Notes: generated from the sequence alone by a model not told the origin. Counted from the stretch's first letter, positions 23,920-31,080 are shown. The stretch is 42,051 nt of DNA from Candidatus Marinimicrobia bacterium CG08_land_8_20_14_0_20_45_22 (GCA_002774355.1 PEYN01000033.1:1-42051), one strand, 5' to 3'. Numbers and translations: made by a program.

Positions 23920-24837
23920 ATGAAAAAAATCTCCATCCTACTACCGATACTAATGCTTTCCGCAACACTTTTTGCCGAAACGAATGCCGGACTCGCCGGT
24001 TCCTATCTCAGAATGGGACTCGGTGCGCAGGCGATTGCCATGGGAAACAGCGGCGTCGCGCTTTCCGCAAACGGTTTTTCCGCATACTACAATCCCGCGG
24101 GCATTCCATATCTTGACAAAAGACACTTATCGATGACTTACTATTTCCTATCGATGGACAGACAATTGCATTACGTCGGACTCGCAATTCCGCTTAAACC
24201 GACTGCAGGCGTTGCTATTTCGTGGATGCACGGCGGGGTAACCGACATTCAGGGTCGCGATTTTCTTGGAAATCCTGACGAGATATATGAAACCGGCGAA
24301 GACGCCATCATCCTTTCCTTCGCGAATACATTTCACCCAAAATTTTCGGCTGGAATCAACTTCAAAATCCTGAAAAACACGCTGTGCGATATTACCGCCA
24401 CCGGACTCGGTTTCGACCTCGGCCTTCTCTACAAGCCAACCAAGTATGTTACTTTCGGACTTGAATTCAAAGACATCGGTGCGAGTTACACGTGGAATAC
24501 CCAGCGGATCTTCGACGAAGAAGGTGGAAATTATACCGAGACTTTCCCGCAAATCGTCAAACTTGGTTTCGCTATCCAGCAGGGTAGCGATTATCTCGTC
24601 ATCGGGGATCTGGAATATTCTGATAAGGGCGAAATACAAACCCATTTCGGCGGCGAATACAATTTTCAAAAACTCTTCTATCTACGAATGGGAATGAACG
24701 ATTTGACCCCTTGCTTTGGGTTGGGCTTTGCCTACGGATTCATCGCCAATCTTGACACGAAGATGGATTACGCCGTTGCGCTCGGCATGGTTGGCGAAGG
24801 CGCAACACACGTTTTTTCGTGGGAATTTAAATTCTGA
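23920..24837 (+). CDS. PorV/PorQ-family outer-membrane protein (copy 1 of tandem pair)
   Basis: The 305-residue protein has a signal peptide (MKKISILLPILMLSATLFA). The PorV-type signature is SYLRMGLGAQAIAMGNSGVAL with SAYYNPAGIPYL. Barrel-like strands follow and the protein ends in W-E-F-K-F. It starts 5 bp after a T9SS cargo gene, and its TGA shares a base with the next ATG. Family members act as T9SS substrate shuttles in the outer membrane. Dedicated service to the cargo upstream is inferred from position. Confidence 0.87.
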   Translation: MKKISILLPILMLSATLFAETNAGLAGSYLRMGLGAQAIAMGNSGVALSANGFSAYYNPAGIPYLDKRHLSMTYYFLSMDRQLHYVGLAIPLKPTAGVAISWMHGGVTDIQGRDFLGNPDEIYETGEDAIILSFANTFHPKFSAGINFKILKNTLCDITATGLGFDLGLLYKPTKYVTFGLEFKDIGASYTWNTQRIFDEEGGNYTETFPQIVKLGFAIQQGSDYLVIGDLEYSDKGEIQTHFGGEYNFQKLFYLRMGMNDLTPCFGLGFAYGFIANLDTKMDYAVALGMVGEGATHVFSWEFKF

Positions 24838-25760
24838 TGGATATCAATATGAAATCACACAATCTCTTTATAATACTTCTCTCGGCGGTATTGATGACTC
24901 TCCTCGGCTTTCCCATAAAATCATCGGGCGAGACCGACTTGGCTTTTATCAAGATGCCTATTTCCGCGCAGTCTGCCGCCGGGATGGGCGTTTTTACGCA
25001 AATGAGCGGATCGCCGATTGCCATTTTTGAAAATCCCGCCGGCATCCAAAATCTCAGCCCGAAGATTTGCCTATCTCACGGTTTTTGGTTCAGCGATATC
25101 TCATCGGATGCATTCGCTTTTTCGATTCCGGTTCGACAGAGAACCTTCGCCGCGGGCTTCAATTTTGTCCGAATTCCGGGCATTCAGATTCGCGAAACGC
25201 CAACCGAAGACCCGTTGAACGAGATCGAAGCACAGTATTTGACTGTCGGCGCCGGTTATTCTCAGCAAATCCGAAAACGGCTAACCATCGGCGCATCCGT
25301 CAAATATCTCTACGAAAATCTTTACACAGAAACCGGTCATGGATATGCCTTCGACTTCAGCGGCAGATGGCTCGCTCCCAGTTCACTTGACGTATCAATT
25401 CTGATCCAAAACCTTGGCAAAATGAACAAACTCGATAATGAATCGACAACTCTACCGCGCCTTTTAAAAATCGGCATTGTTCGCCCAGACATTTTCATCG
25501 AAGATCCATTCCGTGTTTCGGTCGGGTTAAGTTTGGAAACGAATCTGGACACGAAGGAATCAGGCGCACGCGTCGGAACAGAAATCTGCATTAAAAACCT
25601 CCTGTCGCTTCATGCCGGTTATCAACAGATCGGCTCGCTTAACCGGAAATCGGTTGGCTTCAGCATTCAGGCAAAACGCTTTGAACTTGACTATGCTTTG
25701 CTTTTCTATTCTAAAGACATCGACAACCCATCTATCTTTTCCCTTTCCCGAAGGTTTTAG
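24837..25760 (+). CDS. PorV/PorQ-family outer-membrane protein (copy 2 of tandem pair)
   Basis: The 307-residue protein resembles its neighbour in layout: MPISAQSAAGMGVFTQMS, then ENPAGIQNL, then barrel strands, ending FSLSRRF. The start may be ATG 24837 (overlapping the previous TGA) or ATG 24849, where the signal peptide MKSHNLFIILLSAVLMTLLG begins more typically. Neither has a clear ribosome site, so coupling to the upstream gene is likely. It and the previous gene may be an old duplication, though sequence divergence is large. Confidence 0.84.
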   Translation: MDINMKSHNLFIILLSAVLMTLLGFPIKSSGETDLAFIKMPISAQSAAGMGVFTQMSGSPIAIFENPAGIQNLSPKICLSHGFWFSDISSDAFAFSIPVRQRTFAAGFNFVRIPGIQIRETPTEDPLNEIEAQYLTVGAGYSQQIRKRLTIGASVKYLYENLYTETGHGYAFDFSGRWLAPSSLDVSILIQNLGKMNKLDNESTTLPRLLKIGIVRPDIFIEDPFRVSVGLSLETNLDTKESGARVGTEICIKNLLSLHAGYQQIGSLNRKSVGFSIQAKRFELDYALLFYSKDIDNPSIFSLSRRF

Positions 25761-26786: not shown

Positions 26787-27104
26787 ACAGGTTGCATTCA
26801 ATTCATCCAGTTCATCTGAAAACGCCGGAAGCCGTCTATCAATCTCCCGCTAAATTGAAGACCGATGCCGCAAAAACATCAGCCGATCGCCGGCGATCGT
26901 GGCGAAAAAATACGAACGCGCTTTATCGGAAAAAGACCGATTAATTGAACGCTTGCGCTCTGGACAAGCTACTTGAAAATATTTTCTTGACAATTAATCG
27001 GATATGTGAGAACTTTGTATTAGAAGCAAGGTAGATGTTGTCAAAAGTTGACAGTAACTATTAACAAACCCAAAAATTGAGAAACCGCAATGGAGCGTAC
27101 CAGA
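26787..27104. other. Intergenic region without a recognised gene
   Basis: This stretch has no convincing coding gene. A short open stretch around 26875-26976 could encode a ~35-residue charged helix but lacks a good start, so it is unproven. TTGACA at 26987-26992 has no good -10 box at 17 bp; a Bacteroidetes-type reading (TTG, 20 bp, GAACTTTG) is possible. An inverted repeat TGTCAA-AAG-TTGACA occupies 27039-27053, 52 bp before the next gene. Confidence 0.5.
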
Positions 27105-27347
27105 ATGGACGAAAATTTTAACTCAATAGGGAAGAAACCGACACCGTTGCCCTTCGACAGCAAGATTAACGAAAAATGCGCAAAGTGCCAAAACGACATC
27201 GTGTATCGCCGGAGCTCCTATTTTGGAATCAAGACCTATTACAAAATCTGCAATTTCTGCGGATATTATCAGGTCATTCCCAAAGAGGTCTGGAAAGAAG
27301 TAATCAACCGTACAAAACCTGTCAAACCTCAGGAACGCGCCGAATAA
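27105..27347 (+). CDS. Small zinc-ribbon protein
   Basis: This 80-residue protein has two Cys pairs, CAKC and CNFC, about 20 residues apart, a layout that binds one zinc ion. The rest is charged, with a basic tail (KPVKPQERAE). I start it at ATG 27105 because GGAG lies 9 bp upstream (27092-27095); ATG 27090 would add five residues. No family name is recognised. It stands alone, 176 bp before the mqnB-like gene. Nucleic-acid or protein binding would be a guess. Confidence 0.65.
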   Translation: MDENFNSIGKKPTPLPFDSKINEKCAKCQNDIVYRRSSYFGIKTYYKICNFCGYYQVIPKEVWKEVINRTKPVKPQERAE

Positions 27348-27523: not shown

Positions 27524-28165
27524 GTGAAAATTTTATTAGTTTCCGCCACGCGAAAAGAACTTCATCCTGTCAAAAAGGCGATTCGGGCTTCTTTCCCACA
27601 AACCAACGGCATCGAATTCTACTTTCTTTCGGTCGGCATCGGGCTTCGTAACTCCGCTATGGTAATGACGAACAATCTCAGCATCTCGGTCAGATACGAT
27701 CTCGCGATCAACTTCGGACTTGCCGGTTCGCTATCACCTCAACTAAACGTTGGCGATGTTTTCTTCCCAACCTCTTTTCATGCTTTCCAGAATGGGGCGA
27801 TTAAATCGGTCAACCCGATAAACACTTCAAACCGAGTGTCAGATGGATTGCCGGAAACATGGATTCGCGGCGGCTTGTTCTCATCGGAAAAGCCGATCGT
27901 TTCCACCGAACAAAAATCTTCAGTGGTTTCCGCATCCGGCGCTCTTGCCGTTGATATGGAAGCCTTCGCACTCTTAGAATCTTGTCGTCGCGCTGATATT
28001 CCGTTTATATCGTTAAAGATCATTTCCGATCAGGCAGATTCCACGGCGATTTGGACGTTTTTCCGCGAACTAAATAAAAATCTCGCCGTTTTATCGGTCG
28101 AAACCATGCGTTTGATTCGGCACATTTTAAAACAAACGGAGTCGATCTATGGACGATCCGGGTAA
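27524..28165 (+). CDS. mqnB: Futalosine hydrolase-like nucleosidase
   Basis: The 213-residue protein belongs to the PNP/MTAN nucleosidase fold. It begins MKILLVSATRKEL, has the phosphorylase-type loop INFGLAGSLSPQLNVGDV, and carries the ligand-binding VDMEAFAL. The C-terminal KIISDQAD supplies the catalytic Asp region. The short length and N-terminus fit MqnB, which releases hypoxanthine from futalosine in menaquinone synthesis. An MTA/SAH nucleosidase is the alternative. The start is GTG 27524. No other mqn gene is in the window. It overlaps the glycosyltransferase gene by 17 bp. Confidence 0.72.
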   Translation: MKILLVSATRKELHPVKKAIRASFPQTNGIEFYFLSVGIGLRNSAMVMTNNLSISVRYDLAINFGLAGSLSPQLNVGDVFFPTSFHAFQNGAIKSVNPINTSNRVSDGLPETWIRGGLFSSEKPIVSTEQKSSVVSASGALAVDMEAFALLESCRRADIPFISLKIISDQADSTAIWTFFRELNKNLAVLSVETMRLIRHILKQTESIYGRSG

Positions 28166-29006
28166 AGTATCTATTATCATCCCGACTTACAACCGGGCAG
28201 AAGTTCTCGAGCGCGCGCTAATGTCGGTTTTCTCGCAGACATACGAGAATTTCGAAATCATCGTCATCGACGACGGCTCAACGGACAACACCAATGCCGT
28301 TATCTCCAAACACGCCGACAAAATCCGATACTTTTCTAAATTTCATGCAGGCGTTTCTGCGGCGCGAAATCTTGGACTGGAAAAATCTATCGGCACGTGG
28401 GTCTGCTTTTTAGATTCAGACGATTACTGGTTGCCGGAAAAGCTGGAAATGCAGATGGCTTACACCGCAAAAAACCCCGGCATGATGATCGTCCAAACCG
28501 ATGAGAAATGGATCCGAAACGGCATCTTTGTCAATCCCATGAAAAAGCATCAGAAACACGGTGGCTGGATTTTCAAACAGTGCTTACCGCTCTGTATCGT
28601 CAGTCCGTCCGCCGTGATGGTTCACCAGAAAGTCTTCAACGATGTTGGCGTCTTCGACGAGAGTTTTCCAGTCTGCGAAGATTACGATCTGTGGCTGAGA
28701 ATTTCCCTGAAATATCCCATCGGCTTAATTTCGGAAAAACTGATCGTCAAAACCGGTGGACACGCGGATCAGTTGTCCCGCAAGTACTGGGGAATGGATA
28801 GGTATCGCGTCCGCGCTCTGGAGAAAATTCTATTGGTAGAACTGACGGTGGAACAAAAATGGCTCGTCTTACATGAAATTGTCAGAAAACTTACCGTGCT
28901 TGCTAAGGGACGCGAAAAACGCACCGAATCACAAAACATTTACAGCAACAAACTCCTCAAATACGAGAAAATTCTACATGATTTCATTGCCGATCAGCAA
29001 TCTTAA
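28149..29006 (+). CDS. Family 2 glycosyltransferase
   Basis: The 285-residue enzyme has a GT-A fold: VSIIIPTYNRAEVLERAL at the N-terminus, IVIDDGSTDNT, the metal-binding DSDDYW near residue 98, and the acceptor-side CEDYDLWLR near 177-185. It transfers a sugar from a nucleotide donor, probably to a surface glycan. There are no membrane spans. It overlaps mqnB by 17 bp and the next gene by 29 bp. Donor and acceptor cannot be told. Confidence 0.88.
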   Translation: MDDPGKVSIIIPTYNRAEVLERALMSVFSQTYENFEIIVIDDGSTDNTNAVISKHADKIRYFSKFHAGVSAARNLGLEKSIGTWVCFLDSDDYWLPEKLEMQMAYTAKNPGMMIVQTDEKWIRNGIFVNPMKKHQKHGGWIFKQCLPLCIVSPSAVMVHQKVFNDVGVFDESFPVCEDYDLWLRISLKYPIGLISEKLIVKTGGHADQLSRKYWGMDRYRVRALEKILLVELTVEQKWLVLHEIVRKLTVLAKGREKRTESQNIYSNKLLKYEKILHDFIADQQS

Positions 29007-29931
29007 AATCGACAGAATCGACTTTTCCGACCGGATGTTTGATCTATTCTATCCGATAAGAGCGAACGCACAGATTTCAAACAAACCAGATTCCCTTCAA
29101 TTGCCTGCGCTCGTTCAAATTTCACCATCCGGTTACCGGATCATCATCGGAAGAGAGTGGCTCGAATCCCGCAAATCGGACGAATCCGTTCCGGCTTTCA
29201 TTCTTCTAGAAAACGAAATGGTAATCAACGAGCTCCGCATTTCCGCCAATTACGTACGGCTTTTCCGTCCCCTGATTCCAACCGAAGTCGCCGGAATTGT
29301 TCGTGTTTTAATTGCCCAAAAAACTGCGAGAGAAACGATTGCCAAGACGCTTTTTCCGGAAATCGGCTTGTCGCCGAATATTAAACTGATCGACGCTTAC
29401 CTAAATTGCCTAAACCTCGACCCAAACATCGCAGAATGGCTCATTGGGAAAAACGCGCCACAAAAGACATGGTTTGCGCTGTCAACGCTGGATCGAGAAT
29501 TTCAAGCCGAACTAGTTTTGTTGCTCGACAAAACCCGGCCGACGCTCAGCATTTTGGAGGAAATCGTTCGGAACATCCGCGAAACTGCGATTCGTGAAGA
29601 AATGGATACTCCCCAAATCCTCACGAAGATCGGATGGAAGACAGTTCTCGAAAATCCCGATCTGACGGAGTCAGACAAGATTGCCAGCCTTCGGCAAGAT
29701 ATCACACGAATGCGGTTTCCGTTGCTGTCATCACACGCAAGCCGAGCCGAAGCGTTCTGGCAAAAAATCAATGTGCCACCGAACGTCCACATTTCCTATG
29801 ATCCCACATTCGAGAAAAAGGAACTGACGCTTGATGCGATTCTCGCCTCGCCCCAAGACATCAACACGTTGGAGCAATTCTTCAACGACGACAACCGCCG
29901 CAATCTGAACGAACTCCTCGAAAACCTGTAA
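28978..29931 (+). CDS. ParB/Srx-like domain protein paired with a radical-SAM gene
   Basis: The 317-residue protein resembles ParB-type proteins in order of parts. The segment ALVQISPSGYRIIIGREWLESRK and VPAFILLENE (residues ~38-80) is like the ParB N-terminal domain. A helical middle has RLFRPLIPTEVAGIVRVLI and helices like the ParB helix-turn-helix (TARETIAKTLFPEIGLS). LNLDPNIAEWLI is followed by TLDREFQAELVLLL. I start it at ATG 28978; a longer start at 28873 would lie far inside the glycosyltransferase gene. The stop is followed six bases later, in the same frame, by the radical-SAM start. ParB-fold proteins can bind CTP or DNA, but the role here is unknown. Confidence 0.6.
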   Translation: MISLPISNLKIDRIDFSDRMFDLFYPIRANAQISNKPDSLQLPALVQISPSGYRIIIGREWLESRKSDESVPAFILLENEMVINELRISANYVRLFRPLIPTEVAGIVRVLIAQKTARETIAKTLFPEIGLSPNIKLIDAYLNCLNLDPNIAEWLIGKNAPQKTWFALSTLDREFQAELVLLLDKTRPTLSILEEIVRNIRETAIREEMDTPQILTKIGWKTVLENPDLTESDKIASLRQDITRMRFPLLSSHASRAEAFWQKINVPPNVHISYDPTFEKKELTLDAILASPQDINTLEQFFNDDNRRNLNELLENL

Positions 29932-29937
29932 AATATC

Positions 29938-31080
29938 TTGAGTATCATTCGGAAAATATTCGTTTCTGCTTCCGCACAAAATGACGCGTTAACGCGCCAA
30001 ACGCTGAAAGACTTTCCAAATATTATACCAGAAATTTTAGAAGACCGCGACGACCTGTCCAATCGGAATGATTTGCCGGACTCCAAACAGGTTCTATTTC
30101 TCACGCGCTCCAAAGGCGACGTCGTCAAGGATTGCCCCGGAACGTCGAAGGATTATCTGTGCTGTCAGTATCGCGTCATTAATCAGACGCAGAACTGTCC
30201 ATTGAACTGTACCTACTGTATTCTCCGGTTCTATTTGAACTTTCCGGCAACGTTAATCTTCACGAACGTTGAAGACATCCTGCCGGAAGCGGCAACTAAA
30301 ATTCAACGCTACCCAAAGCGCCTGTTCCGAATTGGAACCGGAGAACTTGGCGATAGTTTGGCGCTCAGCGGATCGCGCTATTTCGCCGAACGCGCCGTAA
30401 AATTCTTTGCTAATATGCCGAATGTCCTATTCGAACTTAAATCCAAGACGACGTATATTAACTCAATTATGCCGCTCAATCATGGCGGGAAAACCATTCT
30501 ATCGTGGTCTCTCAATCCCCAGGAAATTATTCGGAAAGAGGAGTCGGCGGCGGCGAATCTCTCCGAACGGCTTTCGGCGGCAAAGCGCGCGCAGGATGCC
30601 GGTTTTCTCATTGGATTTCACTTAGACCCAATCATCAATTTGCCTGATGGCAACCGCCTCTATTCGGAGCTCTGTGAGGCGATTTACGATGCTGTCGATC
30701 CGGCAGGAATCGCATGGATCAGTCTCGGCTCGCTAAGATTTCCGCCATCGATGAAAGATGCGATGATAGAGCGCTATCCGAAATCCGCTCTTCCTTACGG
30801 CGATATGATTCGCGGAATCGATGGGAAACTGCGGTACGTCCGCCCGTTGCGCGTTTCGATGTATCGACCGATCTATCAGAGCCTAATAAGCATCCCGAAT
30901 CCGCCATTCATCTATTTTTGCATGGAAAGTTCAATCGTTTGGATGGAAACGACCGGCTTCACGCCCGAAAACAACAGCCATCTGGACTATCTTTTTGCTG
31001 AAAGTCTGCACCGCCGCTTTCCCGACCGTTATCCAATGAAGCCGGAGCGGGAAGAATATAACCAAGAGTGTATATTTTGA
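29938..31080 (+). CDS. Radical-SAM protein related to spore photoproduct lyase (SplB-like)
   Basis: The 380-residue protein carries the 4Fe-4S motif CPLNCTYC (Cys87, Cys91, Cys94) followed by ILRFYLNFP, as in the spore photoproduct lyase family. Downstream are RIGTGELGDSLAL and FLIGFHLDPII. The region where classical lyases have their hydrogen-donor Cys (Cys141 in Bacillus, from memory) reads GTGELGDS, without Cys. It is therefore unlikely to be a standard lyase, and DNA repair or another radical reaction is open. The start is TTG 29938, the first usable start after an in-frame TAA at 29929. No ribosome site is evident, so it is probably coupled to the ParB-like gene. Confidence 0.82.
   Translation: MSIIRKIFVSASAQNDALTRQTLKDFPNIIPEILEDRDDLSNRNDLPDSKQVLFLTRSKGDVVKDCPGTSKDYLCCQYRVINQTQNCPLNCTYCILRFYLNFPATLIFTNVEDILPEAATKIQRYPKRLFRIGTGELGDSLALSGSRYFAERAVKFFANMPNVLFELKSKTTYINSIMPLNHGGKTILSWSLNPQEIIRKEESAAANLSERLSAAKRAQDAGFLIGFHLDPIINLPDGNRLYSELCEAIYDAVDPAGIAWISLGSLRFPPSMKDAMIERYPKSALPYGDMIRGIDGKLRYVRPLRVSMYRPIYQSLISIPNPPFIYFCMESSIVWMETTGFTPENNSHLDYLFAESLHRRFPDRYPMKPEREEYNQECIF

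Follow-up and report, generated by a model that had tools for sequence, protein, structure and literature searches.

Why does a gene for a ParB-like protein lie directly upstream of one for a relative of spore photoproduct lyase (SPL), a radical S-adenosylmethionine (SAM) enzyme, and do the two act alone? The question is raised by a stretch of 42,051 nucleotides (nt) from Candidatus Marinimicrobia bacterium CG08_land_8_20_14_0_20_45_22 (GCA_002774355.1, PEYN01000033.1:1-42051), hereafter the window. It belongs to a Neomarinimicrobiota metagenome-assembled genome, and its nearest named relative is JAQUKI010000050 (69% identity). An earlier note on this DNA had proposed a two-part DNA repair or nucleic-acid modification system. 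We found that the pair closes a packed run of four genes in the window, NUC, GT, ParB-L, and SPL-L, all on the plus strand, and that across phyla these four are inherited together and are found side by side again and again, in varying combinations. The genes of the run are as follows (aa, amino acids; MTA/SAH, methylthioadenosine/S-adenosylhomocysteine).

27524-28165, plus strand: NUC, purine nucleosidase of the PNP_UDP_1 superfamily (MTA/SAH-nucleosidase, futalosine-hydrolase, or HpnG-like), 213 aa (Pfam PF01048, E=8.5e-18)
28149-29006, plus strand: GT, glycosyltransferase family 2, 285 aa (Pfam GT2, PF00535, E=1.9e-34)
28978-29931, plus strand: ParB-L, ParB-like protein, 317 aa (ATG at 28978, TAA at 29929-29931)
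29932-29937, plus strand: junction of ParB-L and SPL-L, six bases without a Shine-Dalgarno-like sequence (from the sequence and the junction survey)
29938-31080, plus strand: SPL-L, radical-SAM enzyme with the spore-photoproduct-lyase fold, 380 aa, TTG start, in the same frame as ParB-L

The GT gene shares 17 nt with NUC and 29 nt with ParB-L. The two-part description was too narrow: GT and NUC also belong, and both also accompany other SPL subfamilies, for which no ParB-L was found.

We scanned 245 Neomarinimicrobiota genomes with thresholds of >75 bits for ParB-L (canonical ParB scores about 50 or less) and >300 bits for SPL-L. ParB-L was found in 63 genomes and SPL-L in 62; either is present in 66 and both in 59. 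SPL-L is adjacent to and downstream of ParB-L in 43 genomes, and both are present at non-adjacent positions in 16. The corresponding Fisher p of about 1e-47 is an index of association rather than a probability, since the genomes share ancestry. At most loci the two genes are separated by -4 to about +20 nt (-4, 0, 4, 5, 6, 7, 8, 11, 14 nt and more). The junction survey showed that the frame is not fixed, several loci having the second gene in another frame, and in many genomes of family f1 an ATG directly follows the stop codon.

The earlier note had read the window's junction correctly, as a TAA and six bases, in frame and with no ribosome site for the second gene. Its interpretation is supported in part. 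The tight packing is real and compatible with coupled translation, whereas the shared frame is uninformative on fusion because neither spacing nor frame is conserved, and we thus rejected shared frame or readthrough as a feature of the locus. The natural fusions that it had suggested looking for are nearly missing for this pair. A 731-aa 'open frame' in locus L022 (genome G049) turned out to be two open reading frames (ORFs) split by TAG, and a 638-aa frame in G284 holds a run of N and no recognisable domain upstream. The only ParB-remnant/SPL fusion seen is weak (L105:1015-2451, minus strand, G359; E=5e-5). In this ORF of 479 aa, which lies just downstream of the GT gene, SPL-L is fused to a short C-terminal remnant resembling ParB-L.

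The association holds outside the phylum, so that the pairing is found well beyond the genome from which the earlier note had proposed it. A search for relatives contributed 147 further genomes from other phyla, 33 of which have SPL-L (called at E<1e-70). ParB-L, counted if the match reached its family-specific C-terminal half, is present in at least 29 of these 33, versus 4 of 47 SPL-L-negative genomes used for comparison. It lies directly upstream of SPL-L in 16 of the 33, with three further weak cases, and G270 has ParB-L beside a weaker SPL-L. The specific GT, called at >280 bits, is found in 24/33 SPL-L genomes and 2/47 others (Fisher p=6e-11), and both of the latter also carry ParB-L. 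Within the phylum, 59 genomes having an SPL-family gene were chosen, and 52 of them carry GT; the only GT-positive genomes lacking such a gene (G022, G072, and G233) all have ParB-L.

Searches of the fetched loci with the four family profiles showed that the gene order of the window is kept throughout its family and order. The same NUC-GT-ParB-L-SPL-L order is found in unrelated phyla (L058/L086 of G301 and L078/L103 of G258), and L061/L098 of G286 has the four-gene set with NUC divergent. Elsewhere the parts are re-paired. GT and ParB-L remain together with SPL-L at another place (G298, G338, G380, and G376), or are accompanied by an SPL-NUC pair (G382). NUC and GT are adjacent with ParB-L/SPL-L at another place (G028, G036, G039, and G049), GT-NUC-SPL sets include other SPL subfamilies (G112, G032, G106, and G108), and NUC-SPL pairs occur in G122, G154, and G037. 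NUC and SPL are even fused in a 624-aa protein of Fusobacterium vincentii (L053:3095-4966, NZ_CP084075.1 1191766-1193637; NUC E=4.5e-11, SPL E=1e-40). No other sequence evidence at hand speaks as strongly as this re-pairing for a joint action of all four.

Some of these loci deserve a remark. The Fusobacterium fusion lacks an entry in the annotation table used, and its record is filed as a plasmid but is chromosome-sized (2.1 Mb). Loci L162-L170 (G112, G032, G106, G108, G041, G169, G122, G154, and G037), from further Neomarinimicrobiota families, associate the same GT and/or a nucleosidase with the different SPL subfamilies GSGQSSDSLAL and FSGYDCDSLAL, apparently without ParB-L. The GT-adjacent nucleosidase at G036:C1:33151-33729 was matched in two pieces, possibly because of a frameshift or a weak mid-alignment. 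An origin in mobile elements or phages was rejected: searches of plasmids and phages with ParB-L gave only partial, generic ParB similarity, and a scan of IMG/VR found no relative of SPL-L.

Is ParB-L really a ParB-type protein? Its regions are listed below.

28978-29262, plus strand: ParB_N-like domain, residues 1-95 (Pfam ParB_N in relatives; AlphaFold2 structure elements)
29149-29160, plus strand: position of the CTP-binding arginine patch of ParB (GERR), degenerate in the window, where it reads GREW (family alignment)
29278-29766, plus strand: helical region including the equivalent of the ParB helix-turn-helix (HTH), residues 101-263 (AlphaFold2; family profile; Pfam HTH_ParB)
29767-29931, plus strand: family-specific C-terminal beta-beta-alpha-alpha region, residues 264-317 (AlphaFold2; conserved motifs)

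Taken alone, the sequence of the window protein gives weak evidence: phmmer against ParB structures gave E=0.46, a Pfam scan gave no ParB match, and the profile of its own branch reached E=0.003. The family profile built across phyla matches ParB at E=2e-22, with Noc aligned over residues 1-228, and the ParB DNA-binding domain 6s6h at E=1.3e-4. Among 34 family members, 16 match Pfam ParB_N (the best at 9e-11) and 3 match HTH_ParB. The AlphaFold2 model of the window protein is of high quality (predicted local distance difference test, pLDDT, 90), and its top 25 Foldseek matches in the PDB are all ParB, Noc, KorB, or PadC (probability 0.98-1.00). ParB-L thus has the ParB_N plus HTH fold of the ParB/Noc clamp superfamily, and the ParB-like layout that had been claimed for this 317-residue protein is borne out. 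It was judged distinct from the chromosome-partition ParB, since the same genomes encode a separate canonical ParB (~291 aa, G000:C91; ~40 bits).

The GERR arginine patch of ParB is needed for CTP binding (PMC12207404). Its replacement by GREW in the window means that CTP binding, which the earlier note had allowed for ParB folds, is not to be assumed for this protein. The patch is also lost in the sampled members of families f1-f4, f7, f12, and f18. Most ParB-L outside the phylum keep a GxRR/GxKR patch and an N-x-x-x-R-x-L-N-x-x-E segment in the family alignment. Conserved positions of the family include R(Y/F)P just upstream of the C-terminal region and a D..FE motif. Loci L101, L075, and L077 (in G315, G329, and G336) encode forms of 172-196 aa without ParB_N, which suggests that what the protein cannot do without is its C-terminal half.

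The second gene was rightly recognised as an SPL relative. SPL-L matches Pfam SPL (PF20903) with 71.9 bits for a cut-off of 27, and Foldseek relates it to SPL with E=1e-19 (template modelling scores 0.72/0.80, 4k9r), the next radical-SAM enzyme being at 4e-6. It scores only 95.9 bits against the NCBIfam equivalog TIGR04070, whose cut-off is 400. Two motifs carry the interpretation of its chemistry.

30196-30219, plus strand: CX3CX2C [4Fe-4S] cluster motif (C87, C91, and C94), invariant in the family
30334-30345, plus strand: GTGE motif, residues 133-136, E136 taking the place of the SPL H-donor Cys140 (HMMER alignment with SPL of Geobacillus thermodenitrificans)

SPL repair depends on a Cys H-donor (C140 in G. 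thermodenitrificans, C141 in Bacillus subtilis) and on a Tyr (Y98/Y99) returning the radical to SAM, and mutants of this relay use up SAM and release 5'-deoxyadenosine (PMC3742179). In SPL-L the H-donor position is Glu136, invariant across the phylum and present, with few outliers, in nearly all SPL-L of other phyla. The relay position of Tyr98 is Ile95 in the window and variable elsewhere in the family. Tyr93, ELKTK, GFHFDP, DGK.RY, and YxCMES are kept. Because the essential H-donor Cys is replaced by Glu, these residues indicate that SPL-L is not a spore photoproduct lyase; a different reaction is predicted, and repair of the spore-photoproduct type is unlikely.

The NUC family profile matches MTA/SAH nucleosidase structures (E=2e-33), and NUC retains the active-site motifs VDMEA and SD(Asp), which places it in this superfamily. 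It falls short of every NCBIfam equivalog cut-off, among them those for MTA/SAH nucleosidase (48 of 73.8 bits), HpnG (81 of 187), and futalosine hydrolase (57 of 125), the last two being its nearest models. GT has the motifs DDGS, LDSDD, CEDYD, and a GGHxDQLS-type segment. The GT-A motifs DDGS, DxDD, and ED are conserved in 22 GT sequences, as in family GT2. Since these motifs are kept and identity across phyla is 39-71%, GT probably has one conserved substrate.

What could these four proteins do together? We favour, while granting it slightly less than an even chance, one conserved bacterial radical-SAM pathway in which an adenosyl product would be de-adenylated, a glycosyl group transferred, and a ParB-like adaptor employed, with a pyrimidine in nucleic acid as the likeliest target. 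SPL-L, having an intact cluster motif, a GGE-like SAM motif, and no Cys-Tyr relay, would consume SAM at each turnover, because this relay is what recycles SAM in SPL. The product would be 5'-deoxyadenosine or a 5'-deoxyadenosyl adduct. Having the catalytic motifs of MTA/SAH nucleosidases, NUC would take adenine off this product, and GT, whose GT-A active site is complete, would put a sugar on it or on a neighbouring acceptor. ParB-L would be the adaptor bringing the enzymes to their target, possibly a CTP-gated DNA clamp where the arginine patch is kept and a CTP-independent adaptor in the lineage of the window. A pyrimidine seems likeliest because the known substrate of the SPL fold is thymine in DNA and because the fold of the adaptor is a DNA-binding one. 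The outcome would be a modified, possibly glycosylated base, and not direct repair of the spore photoproduct. Probable consumption of SAM and a dedicated, even fused, adenosine-type nucleosidase would imply that a 5'-deoxyadenosyl product or adduct is formed and later trimmed, and by analogy this points to the logic of MqnE-MqnB and HpnH-HpnG. The more specific proposal of a chromosomal nucleic-acid modification system, present in many phyla, in which a ParB-type clamp brings SPL-L to DNA and a pyrimidine is adenosylated or activated, trimmed of adenine, and capped with a sugar, seems to us unlikely as a whole.

Several observations weigh against the favoured pathway. ParB-L is the most variable of the four (about 15-40% identity across phyla), and its ParB_N domain is missing in G315, G336, and G329. 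GT is missing or does not reach the threshold in several genomes with ParB-L/SPL-L (G268, G331, G374, G375, and most of genus g26), and GT-NUC-SPL sets without ParB-L occur in some families, so no part is universally required. The co-occurrence p-values ignore shared ancestry. The role of NUC may be limited to clearing 5'-deoxyadenosine. The acceptor may be a DNA base: the enzyme fold and the adaptor argue for it, whereas caution is urged by the membership of GT in family GT2 and by the lost CTP patch.

These points leave room for other explanations. If SPL-L directly reversed a thymine lesion (not necessarily the spore photoproduct), with ParB-L loading it on DNA and NUC and GT as accessories, one would understand the SPL fold along its full length, the DNA-binding fold of ParB-L, and the presence elsewhere of SplB-like genes in SOS-linked operons (PMC3765255). 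We hold this to be quite improbable: Glu stands in for the essential H-donor Cys and the family does not keep the relay Tyr, direct reversal gives the conserved GT and NUC no role, and we noticed no further repair gene among the recurrent neighbours. A small-molecule or lipid pathway, with SPL-L adenosylating, NUC trimming, GT glycosylating, and ParB-L acting as regulator or nucleotide-binding scaffold, as in HpnH-HpnG or MqnE-MqnB, is rather unlikely. It agrees with the closeness of NUC to the HpnG and futalosine hydrolase models, the NUC-SPL fusion, and the loss of the CTP patch in the lineage of the window. In addition, the known partners of NUC-type nucleosidases are adenosyl-adding radical-SAM enzymes, and GT2 enzymes usually use lipid or polysaccharide acceptors. 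Yet we know of no SPL fold with a substrate other than DNA and, to our knowledge, the ParB fold has no precedent in such pathways. Hopanoids were rejected, since squalene-hopene cyclase is found in 1 of 36 genomes with the module and missing from the other 35.

Finally, ParB-L and SPL-L might be the only true pair, NUC cleaning up 5'-deoxyadenosine, which inhibits radical-SAM enzymes, and GT being an unrelated envelope gene. Genomes of families f7 and f12, in which ParB-L and SPL-L stay together while GT and NUC lie at another place, would fit. However, GT co-occurs with SPL-L across phyla in the proportions given above (24/33 vs 2/47) and adjoins ParB-L or NUC even where SPL-L lies elsewhere, and the genome of the window has four more PNP-family genes besides NUC, so that a dedicated clean-up enzyme is not obviously needed. 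We regard this last explanation as very improbable.

The four parts are all members of known superfamilies, and the assembled four-part system matches no known system that could be compared. SPL-L shares with SplB of B. subtilis and G. thermodenitrificans (PF20903, TIGR04070) the whole fold, CX3CX2C, and the SAM-contact Tyr (Y96 in G. thermodenitrificans, Y93 in SPL-L), but has Glu136 for the H-donor Cys140, Ile95 for the relay Tyr98, and GT, NUC, and ParB-L as partners. ParB-L resembles the CTP-dependent DNA clamps ParB, Noc, and KorB in fold, domain order, and HTH region, and most relatives outside the phylum share with them the GxRR patch and the N-x-x-x-R-x-L-N-x-x-E segment. It differs in being a second ParB-type gene beside the canonical one, in its radical-SAM partner, in its family-specific C-terminal half, and, in the branch of the window, in the lack of the patch. 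HpnH-HpnG(-HpnI) and MqnE-MqnB also combine a radical-SAM enzyme with a nucleosidase of the PNP/MTAN superfamily, HpnI adding a glycosyltransferase, whereas the radical-SAM partner here is of the SPL type and NUC is under the HpnG and futalosine-hydrolase cut-offs. The SplB-like genes of SOS/mutagenesis operons are likewise in conserved operons outside sporulation, but the partners named in that study's passages on them are SRAP/ImuB-C, DUF4130, and other repair proteins, and GT2, ParB-L, and NUC do not appear in these passages (PMC3765255).

In the open-access literature of PMC (subscription literature and preprints being outside the search), we found no paper that links SPL to ParB, to a cluster with a glycosyltransferase, or to a partner nucleosidase, which agrees with the earlier note's suspicion of an undescribed system. 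No function is assigned to the genes that are annotated 'spore photoproduct lyase' or 'DNA photolyase' in bacteria without known sporulation, and one large subfamily of such genes is now tied to recurring NUC, GT, and ParB-like partners. If the proposed pathway is true, the ParB fold is used beyond chromosome partition, nucleoid occlusion, and gene silencing.

Within the window, no parS-like site was found, and promoters and terminators are no more frequent than in shuffles. Upstream of the module, 24837-25760 encodes an outer-membrane protein of the PorV/PorQ family (NF033709, 98 bits for a cut-off of 90), a type IX secretion-type gene. Directly 5' of NUC, 27090-27347 is an ORF of 85 aa with two CxxC pairs (zinc-ribbon-like) and without a family match.

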